Source: Chloroflexota bacterium (lineage in GTDB: Bacteria > Chloroflexota > Anaerolineae > UBA1429). From it: a stretch of 43,783 nt of DNA. The notes under the pieces are model-generated. The model did no database searches. It had not been told where the DNA came from and was given only the letters and a program-made list of their open reading frames with translations. The stretch is taken from NCBI GenBank assembly GCA_019873625.1, contig JAIOAW010000023.1, positions 1-43,783 on the forward strand, written 5' to 3'. The translations under genes and the position numbers were made by a program. Below are positions 6,480 to 14,950 of the stretch, piece by piece; position 1 is the first letter of the stretch; each line of letters begins with the position of its first letter.

Positions 6480-6645
6480 TTGACGCTTGTTCTTGCGCCA
6501 ACGGATCTTTACCGGCTGAAGGGGGCTTTCGAGCGACCTCTACGAGGCGGGCAATATGCGCACGAAGATGCTCATCTCCCCTCTGCGATACCCCTCGCTC
6601 CAGGCCCGCGACCCGGAACCTGATTACGATCCCCTCGTCGCGCAT
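6460..6645 (-). CDS. Doubtful 61-codon ORF coupled to the MOSC gene
   Basis: The ATG shares a base with the MOSC stop (TGATG), a classic coupling arrangement, and the frame runs 61 codons. However, its 3' end covers the -35 box and spacer of the Rrf2 promoter, the product shows no recognisable motif (it lacks the C-terminal GG of MoaD), and it is Arg-rich as random frames in such DNA are. It fills the 165-bp gap between the two operons. I list it only as possible. Confidence 0.2.
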   Translation of the reverse strand: MRDEGIVIRFRVAGLERGVSQRGDEHLRAHIARLVEVARKPPSAGKDPLAQEQASIDKLAR

Positions 6646-7103
6646 CACACGCTGCCATCACCCAGGATTTCGATTGGGTCGCCGGCTCGCACGACGCCCG
6701 GCTCCAGCACCCGGACAAAGATCCCCTCGCGCGGCATAACGCAATCTCCCGCCGCCTGGTAGATGGCGCATTTCGTATGGCACCCTTTGCCGATTTGCGT
6801 CACCTCCACGAGGGCCGTGCCCAGGCGCAGGCGCGTGCCGATGGGCAGGGTATAGAGTTCCAGCCCCTCGGTGGTGATATTTTCGGCAAAACTGCCGGGG
6901 TGAACGTTCAGCCCTTTGGCGCGCATCTTTTCGATGCTCTCGATGGCCAAAAGGCTCACTTGGCGGTGCCAGGCGCCCGCATGGGCGTCTCCTTCCAGGC
7001 CCCATTGGGCCTGCAGAATGCCCTCGGCGATGGGCTTTTTGGGGATGCCCGTCCGATCGCTGATGCAAACGGCCACGACCTTACCCGTGCGTTGGGGCTT
7101 CAT
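6645..7103 (-). CDS. MOSC-domain protein
   Basis: MOSC domains (molybdenum cofactor sulfurase C-terminal) bind molybdopterin cofactors and may handle sulfur transfer or cofactor delivery. The 152-residue protein contains [51 protein letters not shown], and the key cysteine region [13 protein letters not shown]. The ATG at 7103 has GGAGGACG upstream and overlaps the end of moaC by 23 bp. It is the last clear gene of the Moco operon. Small stand-alone MOSC proteins of this size are common next to moaC and mog in anaerobes; the exact role is unknown. Confidence 0.9.
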
Positions 7104-7587: not shown

Positions 7588-8586
7588 TCACCCCCCTATG
7601 CGAGACATCGTATGCGAGGTGGTCGTCACGTAGCGATCGAGTTGATGCCCCGGCCCTTTGGCCGCCACGGCTTGCCGAAAGACCTGGCGAAGTGCCTCAT
7701 CATCAGCGCCGCGGCGCAAGGGCGTGCGCACGTCCAACTCCACATCACTAAACAGGCAGGGGAAGAGGCGCCCATCCGCCGAAAGGCGCAGGCGATTGCA
7801 AGTGGCGCAAAAATGCTCGCTCAGGGCGCTGATGAACCCGATCGTCCCGGCCATGGGGGGCGCGCCGGCCAGGCGCCAGGTGCGCGCTGGGCCGCTCCCC
7901 TCCACATGGGCTGGCTCTAGGGGGCCGAGGGTCTCCTCAAGGCGAGCGCGCACCTCTTGCATACTGACGAATCGCTCCCGCGCCAGGGCCGGCTCCCGGC
8001 CCAAAGGCATATACTCGATGAAACGCACGTGCCAGCCCCGTTCGAGGCTAAGGCGTGCCAAATCGGTTACCTCATCGTCATTGATGGCGCGCATCACGAC
8101 CATATTGATCTTGATGGGGTCAAGGCCGGCGCGTTGGGCCGCCTCGATGCCGGCGAGGGCGTCGCTCAACTCGCCTCGCCGGGTGATGGCCCGGTAGCGT
8201 TCGGGGCGCAAGGTATCCAGGCTGATGTTCACGCGGCGCAAGCCGGCTCGGGCCAAATCCTCGGCGAGGGGGGCGAGCAGGGTGCCGTTCGTGGTGAGGG
8301 CGAGGTCTTCCAGGCCCGGCAGGGCGGCGAGCATACGGACGAGTTCCACCACGCCGCGCCGCGCCAGGGGTTCGCCGCCCGTGAGGCGCACCCGCGTGAT
8401 GCCCAGGCCAATGGCGATCTCGACGAGGCGACGAATCTCCTCAAAACGCAGGATATCTTCATGGCGCATCAACGGGATGCCCTCTTCGGGCATACAGTAG
8501 ATGCAGCGCAGGTTGCACCGGTCGGTGATCGAAACGCGGAGATAGCGGATCTGCCGCGCGAAGGCATCATAGAGGGCGCCTGTCAT
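7588..8586 (-). CDS. moaA: GTP 3',8-cyclase MoaA (radical SAM)
   Basis: MoaA uses S-adenosylmethionine and two Fe-S clusters to cyclise GTP in the first step of Moco synthesis. The 332-residue protein has the radical-SAM motif CNLRCIYC (C24, C28, C31), RLTGGEPLARRG, NISLDTL, the C-terminal cluster motif CATCNRLRLSADG with LFPC, and the conserved C-terminal Gly-Gly in MSRIGG. It overlaps the upstream moeA by 4 bp and precedes moaC by 3 bp. Its cluster need connects it functionally to the iscS-iscU genes next door. Confidence 0.96.
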   Translation of the reverse strand: MTGALYDAFARQIRYLRVSITDRCNLRCIYCMPEEGIPLMRHEDILRFEEIRRLVEIAIGLGITRVRLTGGEPLARRGVVELVRMLAALPGLEDLALTTNGTLLAPLAEDLARAGLRRVNISLDTLRPERYRAITRRGELSDALAGIEAAQRAGLDPIKINMVVMRAINDDEVTDLARLSLERGWHVRFIEYMPLGREPALARERFVSMQEVRARLEETLGPLEPAHVEGSGPARTWRLAGAPPMAGTIGFISALSEHFCATCNRLRLSADGRLFPCLFSDVELDVRTPLRRGADDEALRQVFRQAVAAKGPGHQLDRYVTTTSHTMSRIGG

Positions 8587-9824
8587 CGGGGAACCTCCAC
8601 TTCGGGCAGGTCAAGGCGGATGGCCTCGACCATAGCGCCCGCCTCGAGATCGCCCACGCCGCGCGGGATGCATAGGAGCGCATTCGCGCCAGCCAGAGAA
8701 AGGAGGCGGCTGGAGATTTGGGAACCCGTCGTCTCCGCCCACCACGTGCCCTCTTGCGGGGTCAGCCGGGCGCGCTGAAACTCCAGGCGGTCTGGCTCGT
8801 GGCGCACGGCGTGCTTTAGGCGGGCCTGCACCCTGGGGCGGTGGATGGCGCGGTGCCCCCCCAAGAGGCGCATCAGGGGGCGCACGACCATCTCGAACAT
8901 AACGAGCGAGGAGACGGGGTTGCCGGGCAAGCCCAAGATGTACGTACGCCCCACGGTGGCAAAGGTGAGCGGTTTGCCGGGTTTGATGGCCACCCGGCCG
9001 AAATGCACCGTGCCCAACGCTTCGAGGATGGGCTTGATGAGGTCGCGCGTCCCCATCGAGACGCCGCCTGAGGTGAGCACGATATCCGCCGCGCCGATGG
9101 CCCGTTCCAAGCCTTGGCGTAGGGCGGCGGCCTCATCAGGCAAGTGCTCGACGAGGGCCACCGATCCCCCGTGAAGGGCCACCGCCGCAGCCAGGGCGGG
9201 CGCGTTGCTATTGGGGATTTGCCCAGGCCGTAGGGCCTGGCCCGGCGGCACGATTTCATCCCCCGTGGTGAGGATGGCCACGCGCGGCCTGGGGTAAACG
9301 AGCGCCTCGGCGCGGTTCAACGTGGCGAGCAGGCCGATTTCCGCAGGCCCCAGTGGCGTGCCCTGCTGGAGCACGCCACTCCCCGCGCGCACATCGGCCC
9401 CCACGGGGCGGACGTTCTCGCCGGGGCGCACCGCCCGTTGGGGGATCATCTGCCCATCCCGTTCCGCCGCCTCTTCCACGGGGAGCACGGCGTCGGCGCC
9501 CTCCGGCAGGGGAGCGCCCGTCATAATGCGCAGGCACACCCCTTCCGCGAGGCGCACGGCCTCGGCGCGGCCCGCCTCCCGCTCGCCCAAGATGCGCCGG
9601 GGCGCGAGGCCCTCGGCGGCGCGTAGGGCATAGCCATCCATAGTGGCCGCGGCAAAGGGCGGCCAATCCTCAGTAGCGACGATCTCCTCCGCCAAGACGA
9701 GGCCGGCCAGCCTCTCCAAGGGCAGCCGCTCCGGCGAGAGGGGCCGCGCCTGCCTTTCGACGAGGCGCCAGGCCTCCTCAAAAGGAATCATCGGGTAGGG
9801 GCTGACGTTAGGGAAGACGTTCAT
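8583..9824 (-). CDS. moeA: Molybdopterin molybdotransferase MoeA, paralogue 2
   Basis: MoeA inserts molybdate or tungstate into adenylylated molybdopterin. The 413-residue protein has PFAAATMDGYAL, IMTGAPLPEGADAVLPVEEA, the MoCF-binding core TTGDEIVPPGQALRPGQIPNSN, LTSGGVSMGTRDLIKPIL, KPGKPLTFATVG and LPGNPVSSLVMFE. GGAGG is 8 nt before the ATG. The gene starts 3 bp after the other moeA and overlaps moaA. Two MoeA copies in tandem often accompany use of both metals or of tungsten enzymes; which one handles which metal cannot be read from the sequence. Confidence 0.93.
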   Translation of the reverse strand: MNVFPNVSPYPMIPFEEAWRLVERQARPLSPERLPLERLAGLVLAEEIVATEDWPPFAAATMDGYALRAAEGLAPRRILGEREAGRAEAVRLAEGVCLRIMTGAPLPEGADAVLPVEEAAERDGQMIPQRAVRPGENVRPVGADVRAGSGVLQQGTPLGPAEIGLLATLNRAEALVYPRPRVAILTTGDEIVPPGQALRPGQIPNSNAPALAAAVALHGGSVALVEHLPDEAAALRQGLERAIGAADIVLTSGGVSMGTRDLIKPILEALGTVHFGRVAIKPGKPLTFATVGRTYILGLPGNPVSSLVMFEMVVRPLMRLLGGHRAIHRPRVQARLKHAVRHEPDRLEFQRARLTPQEGTWWAETTGSQISSRLLSLAGANALLCIPRGVGDLEAGAMVEAIRLDLPEVEVPR

Positions 9825-9827
9825 ACC

Positions 9828-11081
9828 TCAGCCTCCTAGAACGGGTGGCGGTGGGAAGAGGAGCACGCTCACCGAACTGCCGGCGGCGAGGTGATCGCAA
9901 TCCTCTGGGATGATGGCCAGGCCGTCGGCCTGCACCATCGAAGAGAGGATGCCCGAACCCTGGTCGCCCGTGAGGGAGGCTTCCCAGCCTTCTTCGGTGG
10001 ATCTCAACCGTACGCGCAGGTAGTGGCGGCGCCCATCTTTGCGCGAGATGGCTTCGCGCAAACGGGCGTTTAGGGTGGGGAGTTCCCACGTGGAGTAGCC
10101 CAGCATCTTGCGGATGGCTGGCCGCCCAAAGAGAAGGAAGGCGATCATCGCCGAGACGGGGTTGCCCGGCAAAGCGAGGAGCGGCACCCCGCCCAGGAGG
10201 CCGAAGGCCATCGGCCGGCCGGGGCGCATATTCACCCACCAAAAGTCGAGCCGCCCCTGCGCCGCCAGCACCTGTTTGGTGAGGTCGAAATCTCCCGCCG
10301 AGACGCCTCCTGAGGTCAGGATGAGGTCGGCGGGCAGGCCAAGCGCCTGGCGCAGCCGGGCGACGAGGGCCGATTCCTCGTCGGGCGCCACCTCCAGCAC
10401 GTGAGGGAGGCCCCCCGCCTCCAGCACGGCAGCGGCCAGGCTGTACGAGTTGCTATCGCGGATTTGCCCCGGTTTTAGGGCGGCGCCAAGAGGGGCTACC
10501 TCATCGCCTGTGGAGAGGACGGCGACCTTGGGCCGGCGCACCACCGCGGCCTCGGCGCGCCCCAAGGCGGCAAGCATCCCAATCTCTTGCGGGCGCAGGA
10601 GCGTTCCACGCGCTAACACCCGTTGGCCAGCGCGCACGTCCTCGCCGGCGGCGCGCACATCCCGCCCTTGGGAAATGCGCCGTTTGACGAGGAGCCACTC
10701 GCCCTCCACGGCGGCATCTTCAAAACGGATGACCGTATCCGCGCCCGGCGGGATGGGCGCACCGGTCATAATGCGCACCGCCTCACCCTGGCCCAAAGGC
10801 TCCCTACGAACCCGCCCCGCCGGCACTTCGCCTACGATCCGCAAGCGCGGCGGTTCGCCCGTGGGCTGGCTTTCGAGATCGGCAAAGCGCACGGCGTAGC
10901 CATCCATCGCCGAGTTGGGCAAAGGGGGGATATCCATCTCGCTCACCACATCCTCGGCGAGGATGCGCCCTAAGGCCTGAAGGATGGGTACCCTTTCCGA
11001 TTCGAGCGGCGAGACGTAACCGAGGATGCGTTCGCGGGCCTCTTCTACGCTTAGGATGGGGTAAGCCTCACGATCGGCCAT
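9828..11081 (-). CDS. moeA: Molybdopterin molybdotransferase MoeA, paralogue 1
   Basis: This second MoeA-type protein has 417 residues: PPLPNSAMDGYAVRF, IMTGAPIPPGADTVIRFEDA, STGDEVAPLGAALKPGQIRDSN, LTSGGVSAGDFDLTKQVL, MRPGRPMAFGLLGG and LPGNPVSAMIAF. The ATG at 11081 has GAGGTG upstream and overlaps the mog stop by 14 bp; longer frames lack a ribosome-binding site. It diverges from the other MoeA in the linker and C-terminal domain IV. Together with the mog-like gene it covers the adenylation and metal-insertion steps. Confidence 0.93.
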   Translation of the reverse strand: MADREAYPILSVEEARERILGYVSPLESERVPILQALGRILAEDVVSEMDIPPLPNSAMDGYAVRFADLESQPTGEPPRLRIVGEVPAGRVRREPLGQGEAVRIMTGAPIPPGADTVIRFEDAAVEGEWLLVKRRISQGRDVRAAGEDVRAGQRVLARGTLLRPQEIGMLAALGRAEAAVVRRPKVAVLSTGDEVAPLGAALKPGQIRDSNSYSLAAAVLEAGGLPHVLEVAPDEESALVARLRQALGLPADLILTSGGVSAGDFDLTKQVLAAQGRLDFWWVNMRPGRPMAFGLLGGVPLLALPGNPVSAMIAFLLFGRPAIRKMLGYSTWELPTLNARLREAISRKDGRRHYLRVRLRSTEEGWEASLTGDQGSGILSSMVQADGLAIIPEDCDHLAAGSSVSVLLFPPPPVLGG

Positions 11082-11577
11082 TGTGGGGCACCTCGTGTTC
11101 CAAATTGCGCCCTTGGGCAATCTGCACGGCGTGGGGCAATACGGGCGCGAGGATCTCCATTCCCTCGGCCACGGCGCGCGGGCTGCCGGGGAGGTTCACG
11201 ATGAGGCAGGCCCCGCGCAACCCCGCCACACCGCGCGAAAGGACGGCCAGAGGCGTCTTGCGGTAGCCCTCGAAGCGCAAGAGTTCGGCCAGGCCCGGCA
11301 TCTCGCGGTCAATCACGCTCAGGGTGGCCTCCGGCGTGTGGTCTCGTGGGGCGGGGCCGGTGCCGCCCGTGGTCATAATGAGGTCGAGGCGCGCCTCGTC
11401 GGCCAGGCGGATGAGTTCGCGGCGGATGAGGTCCGGCTCATCGGGCACGAGGACGCGCTCGCACACCTCGGCGCCCATCTGTTCGAGAAGAGAGGCCAAA
11501 AGGGGGCCGCTCAGGTCCTCCCTTTGGCCGGCATAGCCCTTGTCGCTGATCGTCATCACGGCGGCGCGTATGGCCAT
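11068..11577 (-). CDS. mog: Molybdopterin adenylyltransferase (MogA/MoaB family)
   Basis: This enzyme adenylates molybdopterin before metal insertion. The 169-residue protein begins AIRAAVMTISDKGYAG and has the MPT-binding TTGGTGPAPRDHTPEAT, ELLRFEGY and NLPGSPRAVAEGME. AAGGAGG is placed 4 nt before the ATG. Its size and the form of the TTGGTG motif fit either MogA or MoaB, which share the activity. It is first in the Moco operon, directly behind a structured leader that probably controls it. Confidence 0.92.
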   Translation of the reverse strand: MAIRAAVMTISDKGYAGQREDLSGPLLASLLEQMGAEVCERVLVPDEPDLIRRELIRLADEARLDLIMTTGGTGPAPRDHTPEATLSVIDREMPGLAELLRFEGYRKTPLAVLSRGVAGLRGACLIVNLPGSPRAVAEGMEILAPVLPHAVQIAQGRNLEHEVPHNGRS

Positions 11578-11598
11578 AGGGCCTCCTTATCGGTTCAT

Positions 11599-11633
11599 CA
11601 AAACACCCGGCGCTCGCGGAGGAACGCCGGGTG
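11599..11633 (-). terminator. Terminator hairpin of the Moco leader
   Basis: Minus-strand CACCCGGCG and CGCCGGGTG form a 9-bp stem with a 12-nt loop followed by TTTT. It ends 21 nt before the mog start codon, so it would stop transcription before the operon unless an upstream structure prevents folding. Confidence 0.65.
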
Positions 11634-11649
11634 CAACAACACCACGCCT

Positions 11650-11780
11650 GGGCGTTCTCCTTTCCAAACACGGGAGGCACGGGCGTTTCCCCCCGTACCC
11701 TTGCGGCGAGCCACGCTGCTCACTCCGCGCGACCACTGCCCATAGGCAAGCCGTTAGGCGCAGTGGTTCGGAGAAGACCG
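11650..11780 (-). ncRNA. Probable Moco riboswitch aptamer
   Basis: The leader of the Moco operon folds into several strong helices on the minus strand. CTCCG (11769-11773) pairs with CGGAG (11723-11727), and CCACTGC (11760-11766) pairs with GCAGTGG (11733-11739). GGTACGGG (11692-11699) pairs with CCCGTGCC (11676-11683) around a GAAA-containing loop. TTCTCC (11770-11775) can pair with GGAGAA (11655-11660). The segments GTGCCTCCCG and GGAAAGGAG match what I recall of the Moco RNA motif. Promoter, aptamer, terminator and the mog gene follow in that order. Position upstream of Moco genes is the expected context. No covariance-model score is available. Confidence 0.72.
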
Positions 11781-11796
11781 GTCAGGTTGTGAGAGC

Positions 11797-11825
11797 ATCA
11801 TAGAGGATAAAGGCGAGGCTGTCAA
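11797..11825 (-). promoter_or_regulatory. Promoter of the Moco operon
   Basis: TTGACA and TATGAT are separated by exactly 17 bp on the minus strand. Transcription would begin near 11790 and give a leader of about 210 nt containing the aptamer and terminator. Confidence 0.85.
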
Positions 11826-11855
11826 ATGCTTATAGGGCTTATATTTTGGGGCTAG

Positions 11856-11875
11856 CGGCATTTATCAAAATGCCG
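11856..11875. repeat. Short perfect hairpin in the tRNA-mog gap
   Basis: CGGCATTT and its complement flank ATCA. It lies just upstream of the Moco promoter, beyond tRNA-Ser(CGA). It has no clear T tract and could be a weak terminator or an operator. Confidence 0.35.
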
Positions 11876-11935
11876 TTTGGCAACCCAAAGCCTCAAATAT
11901 AGGGGACTAGGGAAACCCCTAGGGATTGTATCAGG

Positions 11936-12564: not shown

Positions 12565-12762
12565 GATATGGAGTGCTGAACCTTGGTTCAGCACCTGCGG
12601 GGGGTGGCCCTCACCCTGGCCCTCTCCCGCGCCAGCGCGGGAGAGGGAACTCGGAGCGCGAGGCTCCCGCCTCGCACGCGGGCCAGGAGGCCCGCGCTCC
12701 GACTATGGCGTGCTGAACCTTGGTTTAGCATCTGCGGAAGCTCCGCTTCCGCACTCCATATC
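12565..12762. repeat. 198-bp palindrome-rich element with terminal inverted repeats
   Basis: GATATGGAGTGC at the left end is repeated perfectly in inverse as GCACTCCATATC at the right end. Inside are two direct copies of a 34-bp unit (12567-12600 and 12704-12737, three mismatches) containing GTGCTGAACC-TT-GGTTCAGCAC-type hairpins. A CCCTCTCCCGCG hairpin (12620-12647) and a double-hairpin core (12653-12700) also lie inside. No coding potential and no clear target duplication are visible. It looks like a MITE-like or REP-like composite. Confidence 0.6.
12653..12700 (-). repeat. Dispersed 48-bp double-hairpin repeat, copy A
   Basis: GGAGC and GCTCC ends enclose two hairpins, GCGGGCC-TCCT-GGCCCGC and GCGAGGC-GGGA-GCCTCGC (read on the minus strand). 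It matches copy B at 37209-37256 at 46 of 48 positions in opposite orientation; similarity extends further into the flank. Confidence 0.8.
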
Positions 12763-12765
12763 TTT

Positions 12766-12794
12766 CCCCTCTCCCACCTAGAGTGGGAGAGGGG
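12766..12794. repeat. CCCCTCTCCCAC hairpin repeat
   Basis: A perfect 12-bp stem with the loop CTAGA is followed by a GTGAGGG-like tail. Hairpins of this CCCTCTCCC/GGGAGAGGG type are common intergenic repeats in several bacterial phyla. Confidence 0.6.
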
Positions 12795-12819
12795 CAGCGT
12801 GAGGGGGGCCATGCGCCGT

Positions 12820-12848
12820 TTGCCTCTGCCTCTCCTCTCCTCTATAAT
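12820..12848 (+). promoter_or_regulatory. Promoter of the AOR-family gene
   Basis: TTGCCT and a perfect TATAAT are separated by 17 bp. The -10 box lies 29 nt before the chosen ATG. Confidence 0.7.
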
Positions 12849-12877
12849 CCGCCCTAGCCCTTGGAGAGGTGAACCCT

Positions 12878-14950
12878 ATGAAAGAGACGCGAGCCTACCT
12901 CCCGCGCTTTGCACCGCGTTTCGGGTGGGCGAACCGCCTGCTGCGCATTGACCTCAGCACGCACCGCATCAGCGCGGAGCCAATGGACGCCTACATCCCC
13001 GATTTCATCGGCGGTCGGGGCGCCGCCGCGCGCCTGATGTGGAACGAATACCCCGAGCCGGTAGACCCCTTGGCGCCGGAGGCGCCGCTCATCGTGATGA
13101 CCGGCGCGCTCACGGGCACGCGTTCCCCCTATTCGGGGCGCACGGCCATCTGCGGGTTTGCCCCACAGGCCTACCCTTACTCGTGGTACACGCGCGCCAA
13201 CATCGGCGCCCACTTTGGCGGGGAACTCAAACGCGCCGGTTACGATGGCCTGGTGATTACCGGCGCAAGCGAGGCGCCCGTCCAAATCCTCATCGCCGAT
13301 GACGAGGTGCGCCTCCTTAGCGCCGAGGCATGGTGGGGGCTGGATGCCTACGATACCTTGGAGGCGGCCCGCGCCGCCCACGGCCAAGAGGCCCGCACGC
13401 TCACCATCGGCCCGGCCGGCGAGCGGCTCAGCCGCATCGCCACCATTCAGACGGCTACCTCCTCCGCCGCTGGCCAAGGGGGGTTCGGCGCGGTGATGGG
13501 CGCCAAGAAACTCAAGGCCATCACAGTCATCGGGAGCGGGAAGGTGCCCGTTGCTGAGCCGGAGGCCTTTGAGCGCTTGATCCGCGCCATCGGCGAAGAC
13601 GTCCGCGCCTACCGCGGCCCGGGCGACCTGAAGGCCCTCAACGAGCAACTCCGTTGCGCGCGCGGGGGCCGCGTGCGCCCGTATGCCTGCACGGAATCAT
13701 GCCCGACGCCTTGCAATCGCTACTTTGCCGATATGCCGGGCGTCGCCTATCCCGATCGGCGTTGGGAAGGCCACTGGGCTTGCGTGGGCACGCTCTTGCG
13801 GGGCCTCCCGGCAGATGGCCCCTTCCCCACGAACGGCCTGTTTGATTGGCAACTGGGCCTTTACGGCGGGCTGGAGATGAACGTCCTTTCCAACCGTTAC
13901 GGCATCAACCAGTGGGAATTGATCATCAGCCTGGTGCCTTGGCTCGAGACGTGCCAACGATTTGGGCTTATCTCCGAATGGAACGGCGCGCCGATGGATT
14001 GGCAAAGCGCCCCCTTCTGGGCCAAATTCTTGCACGATATCGCCTACCGCGAAGGGATGGGAGACGCGCTCGCCGAGGGCGGCCTGCGCGCTGCCGAGAT
14101 CTTGGGCCTGGGCGAGGAGATCGTGGGGCGCTATTACACGGGCTGGGGCTATGGCGGCCATTGGGATGGCCATGCCTCTTGGAGCAACTATCTCGTCTTC
14201 CCCTATTGGGTCGTCTCGGCGCTCCAATGGGCCACCGACACACGAGACCCTTACAGCAGCAGCCATTGCTACGTGCAGAACGTGATGAACTGGGGGCCGC
14301 TGGGCAATCGGGGTGCCCAGGCGCTCACGTGGGACCAGATGCGCGCCATCGCCCAAAAGGTCTATGGCAGCGCCGATGCGGTGGACCCTTACAGCGGCTA
14401 TAAAGATAAAGCCTTCCCCGCCTTTTACCACGATCGGCGCGCGGCGATGAAAGACTCCCTGCCCACCGACGACCAGGTTTTCACGCTCATCTACAGTGTC
14501 ACCACGGAGGATCGCTTCTGCCGCATTTTGGGGATTGACGGGCCGGATATTGACGCTCACCTTTTCCGCCTGGGCACGGGCACAGACTGGTCCCCCGCCG
14601 ATTTCGACCGCGCCGCCGAACGCATTTACACCCAAGAGCGGGCCATCTGCGTGCGCCACTGGGGGCGCGACCGCGCTATGGACGAGGCCGTCCTCCCCGC
14701 CTTTGAGTATGAGGAAAACTGGGTAAACCCCCTCCTGGGCGAGAAAAAGGCCCTGGATCGCGCCGCTTTCCGGCCTGTGATGGACGAATACTATGCTCAC
14801 TTGGGTTGGGAGGCGCACACCGGCTGGCCCACGCGCGAGCGCCTGGAAGCCCTCGGCCTGGGAGACGTGTACGAACCGATGATCGCCGGCGCCCAGCGCG
14901 CCCGCGCCGTGCGCCCCCCTTGGCGCGAGCCGAAACCGATCCGCATCTAA
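12878..14950 (+). CDS. Aldehyde ferredoxin oxidoreductase family protein (tungsten enzyme)
   Basis: AOR-family enzymes carry a tungsto-bispyranopterin and a 4Fe-4S cluster and oxidise aldehydes or related substrates with ferredoxin. The 690-residue protein shows the N-terminal domain: LLRIDLSTHRISAEP, IPDFIGGRGAAARLMW, LIVMTGALTGTRSPYSGR, then TIGPAGERLSRIATIQT and GQGGFGAVMGAKKLKAI. Candidate cluster cysteines are at about residue 270 in ACTESCPTPCNRYF and about 546 in RFCRILGID. The ATG is chosen for its GGAGAGG 8 nt upstream. The family often has Cx2Cx3C; here the spacing is Cx3Cx3C. No ferredoxin or partner subunit lies beside it. The Moco operon 1.3 kb away would supply its cofactor. The substrate is unknown. 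Confidence 0.9.
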   Translation: MKETRAYLPRFAPRFGWANRLLRIDLSTHRISAEPMDAYIPDFIGGRGAAARLMWNEYPEPVDPLAPEAPLIVMTGALTGTRSPYSGRTAICGFAPQAYPYSWYTRANIGAHFGGELKRAGYDGLVITGASEAPVQILIADDEVRLLSAEAWWGLDAYDTLEAARAAHGQEARTLTIGPAGERLSRIATIQTATSSAAGQGGFGAVMGAKKLKAITVIGSGKVPVAEPEAFERLIRAIGEDVRAYRGPGDLKALNEQLRCARGGRVRPYACTESCPTPCNRYFADMPGVAYPDRRWEGHWACVGTLLRGLPADGPFPTNGLFDWQLGLYGGLEMNVLSNRYGINQWELIISLVPWLETCQRFGLISEWNGAPMDWQSAPFWAKFLHDIAYREGMGDALAEGGLRAAEILGLGEEIVGRYYTGWGYGGHWDGHASWSNYLVFPYWVVSALQWATDTRDPYSSSHCYVQNVMNWGPLGNRGAQALTWDQMRAIAQKVYGSADAVDPYSGYKDKAFPAFYHDRRAAMKDSLPTDDQVFTLIYSVTTEDRFCRILGIDGPDIDAHLFRLGTGTDWSPADFDRAAERIYTQERAICVRHWGRDRAMDEAVLPAFEYEENWVNPLLGEKKALDRAAFRPVMDEYYAHLGWEAHTGWPTRERLEALGLGDVYEPMIAGAQRARAVRPPWREPKPIRI

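Follow-up and report, generated by a model that had tools for sequence, protein, structure and literature searches.

The question raised by this locus is whether the leader of its molybdopterin-cofactor operon is a riboswitch that ends transcription ahead of mog and, if so, which cofactor it would sense. The window, i.e., the whole stretch of DNA analyzed, comprises 43,783 nt of contig JAIOAW010000023.1 of a Chloroflexota bacterium (GCA_019873625.1; Anaerolineae; UBA1429). An earlier note had described here a consensus promoter, about 130 nt of multi-helix RNA likened to the Moco RNA motif, a 9-bp terminator stem with TTTT, the ribosome-binding site of mog and a cofactor operon downstream, and all of these elements were recovered (Table 1). 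The Rfam Moco/Wco riboswitch model RF01055 matched 143 nt of the minus strand end to end (model positions 1-135) with 73.7 bits and an E-value of 4.5e-16 for the whole window, a score about twice the gathering score of 36 bits. Helices P1-P5 are in place, as are the GNRA tetraloop (GAAA) of P4 and its receptor in P2, the conserved junction nucleotides are intact in the Rfam alignment, and the segments singled out in the earlier note were found at 11678-11672 (GCCTCCC), 11665-11657 (GGAAAGGAG, of the GGAAAGG type) and in the P4 loop, all on the minus strand. By its sequence, the window RNA is confirmed as an ordinary member of the Moco/Wco riboswitch family in a little-studied bacterial group. 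Members of this family are credited with sensing the finished molybdenum (or tungsten) cofactor and shutting off transcription of the genes for its synthesis. A covariance-model search of the 2.76-Mb genome found one copy, the one ahead of mog. Its folding energy was not unusual as compared to chance (z -1.17) and was set aside as evidence; it is thus the covariance-model score, together with the promoter and the comparison with relatives, that argues against a chance match. Transcription from the promoter would start near 11790, and a further, moderately stable hairpin was observed in the interval from the tRNA-Ser gene to the promoter (11829-11903, minus strand; fold z -1.65).

Table 1. Features of the riboswitch leader and the cofactor operon (window positions).
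Feature	Position	Strand	Basis or remark
Sigma-70-type promoter: -35 TTGACA (11825-11820), spacer 17 nt, -10 TATGAT (11802-11797)	11797-11825	-	11/12 consensus matches
Moco/Wco riboswitch aptamer, RF01055, P3-containing subtype	11641-11783	-	73.7 bits
P1 5' strand UUCUCC	11770-11775	-	Rfam alignment; partner 11660-11655
P2 with tetraloop receptor CCUAA (11758-11754) and UAUGG (11744-11740)	11732-11767	-	Rfam alignment, sequence
P3 stem, about 9 pairs, marker of the Moco-type subclass	11703-11728	-	32 nt between P2 and P4
P4 with GAAA tetraloop (11689-11686)	11675-11700	-	Rfam alignment; pairs 2-6 covary among relatives
P1 3' strand GGAGAA and CGCC, switching strand (GGAGAACGCC)	11651-11660	-	Partner: P1 5' strand or terminator arm
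GGCGUUCCUCC, antiterminator partner in terminator 5' arm and loop	11618-11628	-	Duplex -16.2 kcal/mol
Intrinsic-terminator-like hairpin, then UUUU	11600-11633	-	Folding; short U-run
Shine-Dalgarno AAGGAGG of mog	11582-11588	-	Sequence
mog/moaB-like molybdopterin adenylyltransferase (ATG at 11577)	11068-11577	-	TIGR00177, 125.8 bits, above cut-off; Pfam MoCF_biosynth
moeA-like gene 1 (molybdopterin molybdotransferase)	9828-11120	-	PRK10680, E 1.1e-123, just under curated cut-off
moeA-like gene 2	8583-9824	-	Profile search; MoeA_N
moaA, GTP 3',8-cyclase	7588-8586	-	TIGR02666, above cut-off
moaC, sole copy in genome	7081-7584	-	TIGR00581, above cut-off
MOSC-domain protein, final gene of the cofactor cluster	6645-7100	-	Pfam MOSC, 58.9 bits, cut-off 22.7

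Profile matches identified the genes after the leader as mog-moeA-moeA-moaA-moaC-MOSC, on one strand and nearly gapless; the true start of the first moeA-like gene is probably downstream of its first TTG. Among named relatives, those closest to the MoeA protein come from Anaerolineae and other Chloroflexota assemblies. Both MoeA_N genes of the genome lie in this operon, and since the genome search found no further MoeA or MoaC outside it (assembly 97.6% complete), the operon is apparently the sole source of MoeA and MoaC in the assembly. Here and in related loci a MOSC protein adjoins MoaC in operons without moaE: MoaE (PF02391) was found in 0 of the 15 genomes of the window's family versus 27 of the 45 other tabulated genomes, and loci with MoaC carried MOSC only (17, from about 12 distinct genomes), MoaE only (11), neither (5) or both (0). 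MOSC may be a stand-in for molybdopterin synthase, as was suggested earlier for Dehalobacter (PMC4751268).

The part of the leader that could connect the aptamer to transcription is the hairpin downstream of it, which consists of nine Watson-Crick pairs (CACCCGGCG, 11633-11625, with CGCCGGGTG, 11612-11604), is GC-rich and is directly followed by TTTT (11603-11600); folding lengthens the stem to 13 pairs. The 3' strand of P1, GGAGAACGCC, is complementary with one bulge to GGCGUUCCUCC, located in the 5' arm and loop of the hairpin; in a test with 200 shuffled arms, not one matched the pairing of this putative antiterminator. Since strands are shared, the antiterminator is mutually exclusive with P1 and with the terminator. 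With the 5' arm just emerged, the antiterminator fold is slightly favored (-77.6 versus -77.0 kcal/mol), and after synthesis of the 3' arm the fold with P1 and terminator is ahead by about 8 kcal/mol; the calculation takes no account of ligand, tertiary contacts or the speed of transcription, and the initial advantage of the antiterminator is just 0.6 kcal/mol. The switch is an addition to the earlier note, which described no antiterminator. Following this, we propose that at low cofactor the nascent P1 3' strand would pair with GGCGUUCCUCC and hold the terminator open, so that the operon is transcribed, and that with ample cofactor the ligand would keep P1 closed and free the terminator arm, which would then form the hairpin and end transcription ahead of mog. 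Termination would be favored by ligand-held P1, since P1 plus terminator is the preferred fold once the 3' arm exists. The OFF direction is read from this anatomy.

Comparison with relatives from the class extends these observations. RF01055 was found in 42 of 60 genomes (the window's own counted), with up to eight copies per genome, and the surrounding DNA was read for 86 matches, of which 82 exceed the cut-off. Gene calls by ORF length 3' of these RNAs yielded antisense artefacts in high-GC DNA and were replaced by codon-usage scoring. Of the 82 RNAs, 42 have a promoter-like site with at least 9/12 matches shortly before them (mean 2.1 in shuffles), and a terminator-like hairpin follows closely in 56 of the 82, including 16 of the 17 biosynthesis aptamers, versus 23 of 240 shuffled leaders. 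Among 51 hairpin-bearing leaders, the P1 strand pairs better with the terminator arm of its own leader than with those of others (mean -11.2 versus -10.2 kcal/mol; 0 of 2000 permutations as low), although the antiterminator is not individually evident in every one of them. Several orthologous mog leaders place CGUUCUCC(UU) in the terminator arm opposite P1 AAGGAGAACG and end in 5-8 U. The covariation check in homologous leaders suggested by the earlier note gave compensatory changes in P4: pairs 2-6 are paired in 35-37 of 40 P3-containing relatives, above all 500 shuffles, with 11-20 double changes each. Of the two outcomes that the earlier note had named as refuting it, a lack of any significant model hit and a lack of compensatory changes, neither was obtained. 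Compensatory counts for P2 were also high but biased, its 3' end having been picked by pairing, and P1 is nearly invariant among the 40. Besides these, two P3-less RNAs in tandem were observed before a WtpA-type tungstate transporter at two loci; tandem members of RF01055 are already known (PMC9481103).

In the window, the run of U is short: UUUU is followed by GAUG, whereas many relatives have a stronger run of 5-8 U, and this hairpin was absent from the results of a consensus terminator scan of the window that requires 5 T in 8. Termination here may be leaky. The short run would also suit a riboswitch acting mainly on translation, in which the Shine-Dalgarno sequence is covered by CUCC of the hairpin loop or by the P1 strand: UUCCUCC of hairpin arm and loop is complementary to GGAGG of the Shine-Dalgarno sequence, and the E. 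coli moaA design is translational, with P1 masking the ribosome-binding site (PMC2408646). That the hairpin is kept in orthologous mog/moe leaders, mostly with longer U-runs, and that the Shine-Dalgarno sequence is not clearly buried in the predicted fold of P1 plus terminator make translational control a rather improbable main mode. Decay of the RNA into a non-functional family member, to which the short U-run and the single copy in the genome could also be ascribed, is highly improbable in view of the intact junction nucleotides, the near-perfect promoter and a switching strand that complements the terminator arm of its own leader. The P3-containing RNA is very probably a cofactor-OFF transcription switch of the cell's apparently only molybdopterin-cofactor operon. 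Its parts, their mutual exclusivity and their conservation come from computation, and from the family we infer the ligand and the termination. The product-feedback termination proposed in the earlier note would have a concrete basis in the conserved competition of antiterminator and terminator. The putative terminating expression platform is well formed, and the riboswitch contains nothing categorically new.

As to the cofactor sensed, a point outside the earlier note, Regulski et al. proposed that P3-containing RNAs sense Moco and P3-less RNAs Tuco (PMC2408646). The absence of P3 that marks the Wco/Tuco subclass was not found in the window RNA: its P2-P4 distance of 32 nt folds as P3, as compared to 5-7 nt in P3-less relatives. 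Where measurable, this distance splits most relatives into 5-7 nt and at least 20 nt, whereas about 20 (a few intermediate and some 15 unmeasured) were assigned by eye; it superseded a regular-expression call by which several RNAs had been misassigned. Among the 82 relatives, leaders with and without P3 numbered 0 and 7 for AOR genes, 8 and 2 for sulfite-oxidase/FecCD-type genes, 14 and 3 for mog/moe/moa biosynthesis genes (window counted), 15 and 10 for tup-like transporters, and 0 and 4 for ECF-type transporters. The difference between AOR and sulfite-oxidase type, uncorrected for relatedness, gave a Fisher P of 0.002. These counts suggest that the P3 rule is broadly valid for enzymes in the class and not for tup-like transporters. 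P3 status did not cluster on a tree of TupA-like proteins, which had few well-supported branches (7 changes; 408 of 500 shuffles as low).

By its P3 stem, Moco is our best guess for the cofactor sensed. It is made less certain by the enzyme content of the genome, in which the search found six AOR-family matches and one DMSO-reductase-type enzyme. Not all AOR-family proteins are tungsten enzymes, which weakens this doubt. The same mechanism with the tungsten cofactor (Wco/Tuco), or both cofactors, as ligand despite P3 would fit this content, the two TupA-like binding proteins of the genome and the fact that the search found no xanthine-dehydrogenase or sulfite-oxidase family proteins there; it would also fit the P3-containing RNAs ahead of 15 tup-like transporter operons of relatives. 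Nonetheless, the TupA-like proteins score under the TupA cut-off, all 7 AOR leaders lack P3, 8 of the 10 sulfite-oxidase-type loci have it, and published P3-containing RNAs accompany Moco or molybdopterin genes only (PMC2408646), so that we regard a tungsten or dual ligand as unlikely, if well short of negligible. Equally doubtful, though worth bearing in mind, is the wider idea that P3 no longer marks Moco specificity in the window's bacterial family, where a P3 RNA would respond to Wco or to either of the two, the cell's cofactor users belonging mostly to the AOR family, and would likewise control tungstate-type transporters. In the genome itself, no RF01055 match over the cut-off was found in the vicinity of tupBCA, the DMSO-reductase-type gene or three of the AOR genes.

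Several further observations concern the distribution of the two subclasses. At two loci both occur in a single operon: a DUF362 gene is preceded by a P3 RNA, and the epimerase and FAD-binding (CO-dehydrogenase-type) genes that come next have a P3-less RNA in front. In four genomes P3-less RNAs stand ahead of genes for an ECF-like transporter that includes an ABC_cobalt (PF09819) component; the substrate of this transporter could be related to molybdenum, tungsten or pterin. Five P3-less AOR leaders carry GCAA (in one case GUAA) instead of GAAA and a shortened P2 without receptor, a link reported earlier for GCAA (PMC2408646), and no terminator hairpin was found in these five. An AOR-family gene of the window (12869-14950, plus strand) points away from the riboswitch operon and has no RF01055 match in front; between tadA and this gene lie repeats (for example GTGCTGAACCTTGGTT) and inverted stretches of CCCTCTCCC/GGGAGAGGG (12570-12830, plus strand), possibly an intergenic repeat element.

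The window RNA resembles the Moco RNA motif (Regulski et al., 2008; PMC2408646) in its full-length model match, P1-P5, the GAAA tetraloop with receptor and P3, in its place ahead of Moco biosynthesis genes and in a putative terminator platform such as has been described for part of the family. It differs in its host, an Anaerolineae-type Chloroflexota, as the survey names gamma- and delta-Proteobacteria, Clostridia, Actinobacteria and Deinococcus-Thermus, and in an operon that starts with mog and carries two moeA genes. With the E. coli moaA riboswitch it shares aptamer family, pathway and, as proposed here, OFF logic; in E. coli, however, P1 overlaps the ribosome-binding site and translation is controlled, whereas the window leader has a separate putative terminator and antiterminator. 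The P3-less Wco/Tuco subclass, present in many relatives and notably before AOR genes, has the same fold apart from the P3 stem. The 2008 study (PMC2408646) did not demonstrate direct ligand binding by members of the family, and none to RF01055 RNAs was found in the literature examined; because the cofactors are unstable, the question of whether P3 sets specificity is hard to settle by direct binding. The class is rich in RF01055 RNAs (82 over the cut-off, 60 genomes sampled); with both P3 forms and varied target genes, it could serve to check independently the 2008 proposal that a single stem sets the choice of molybdenum or tungsten cofactor.
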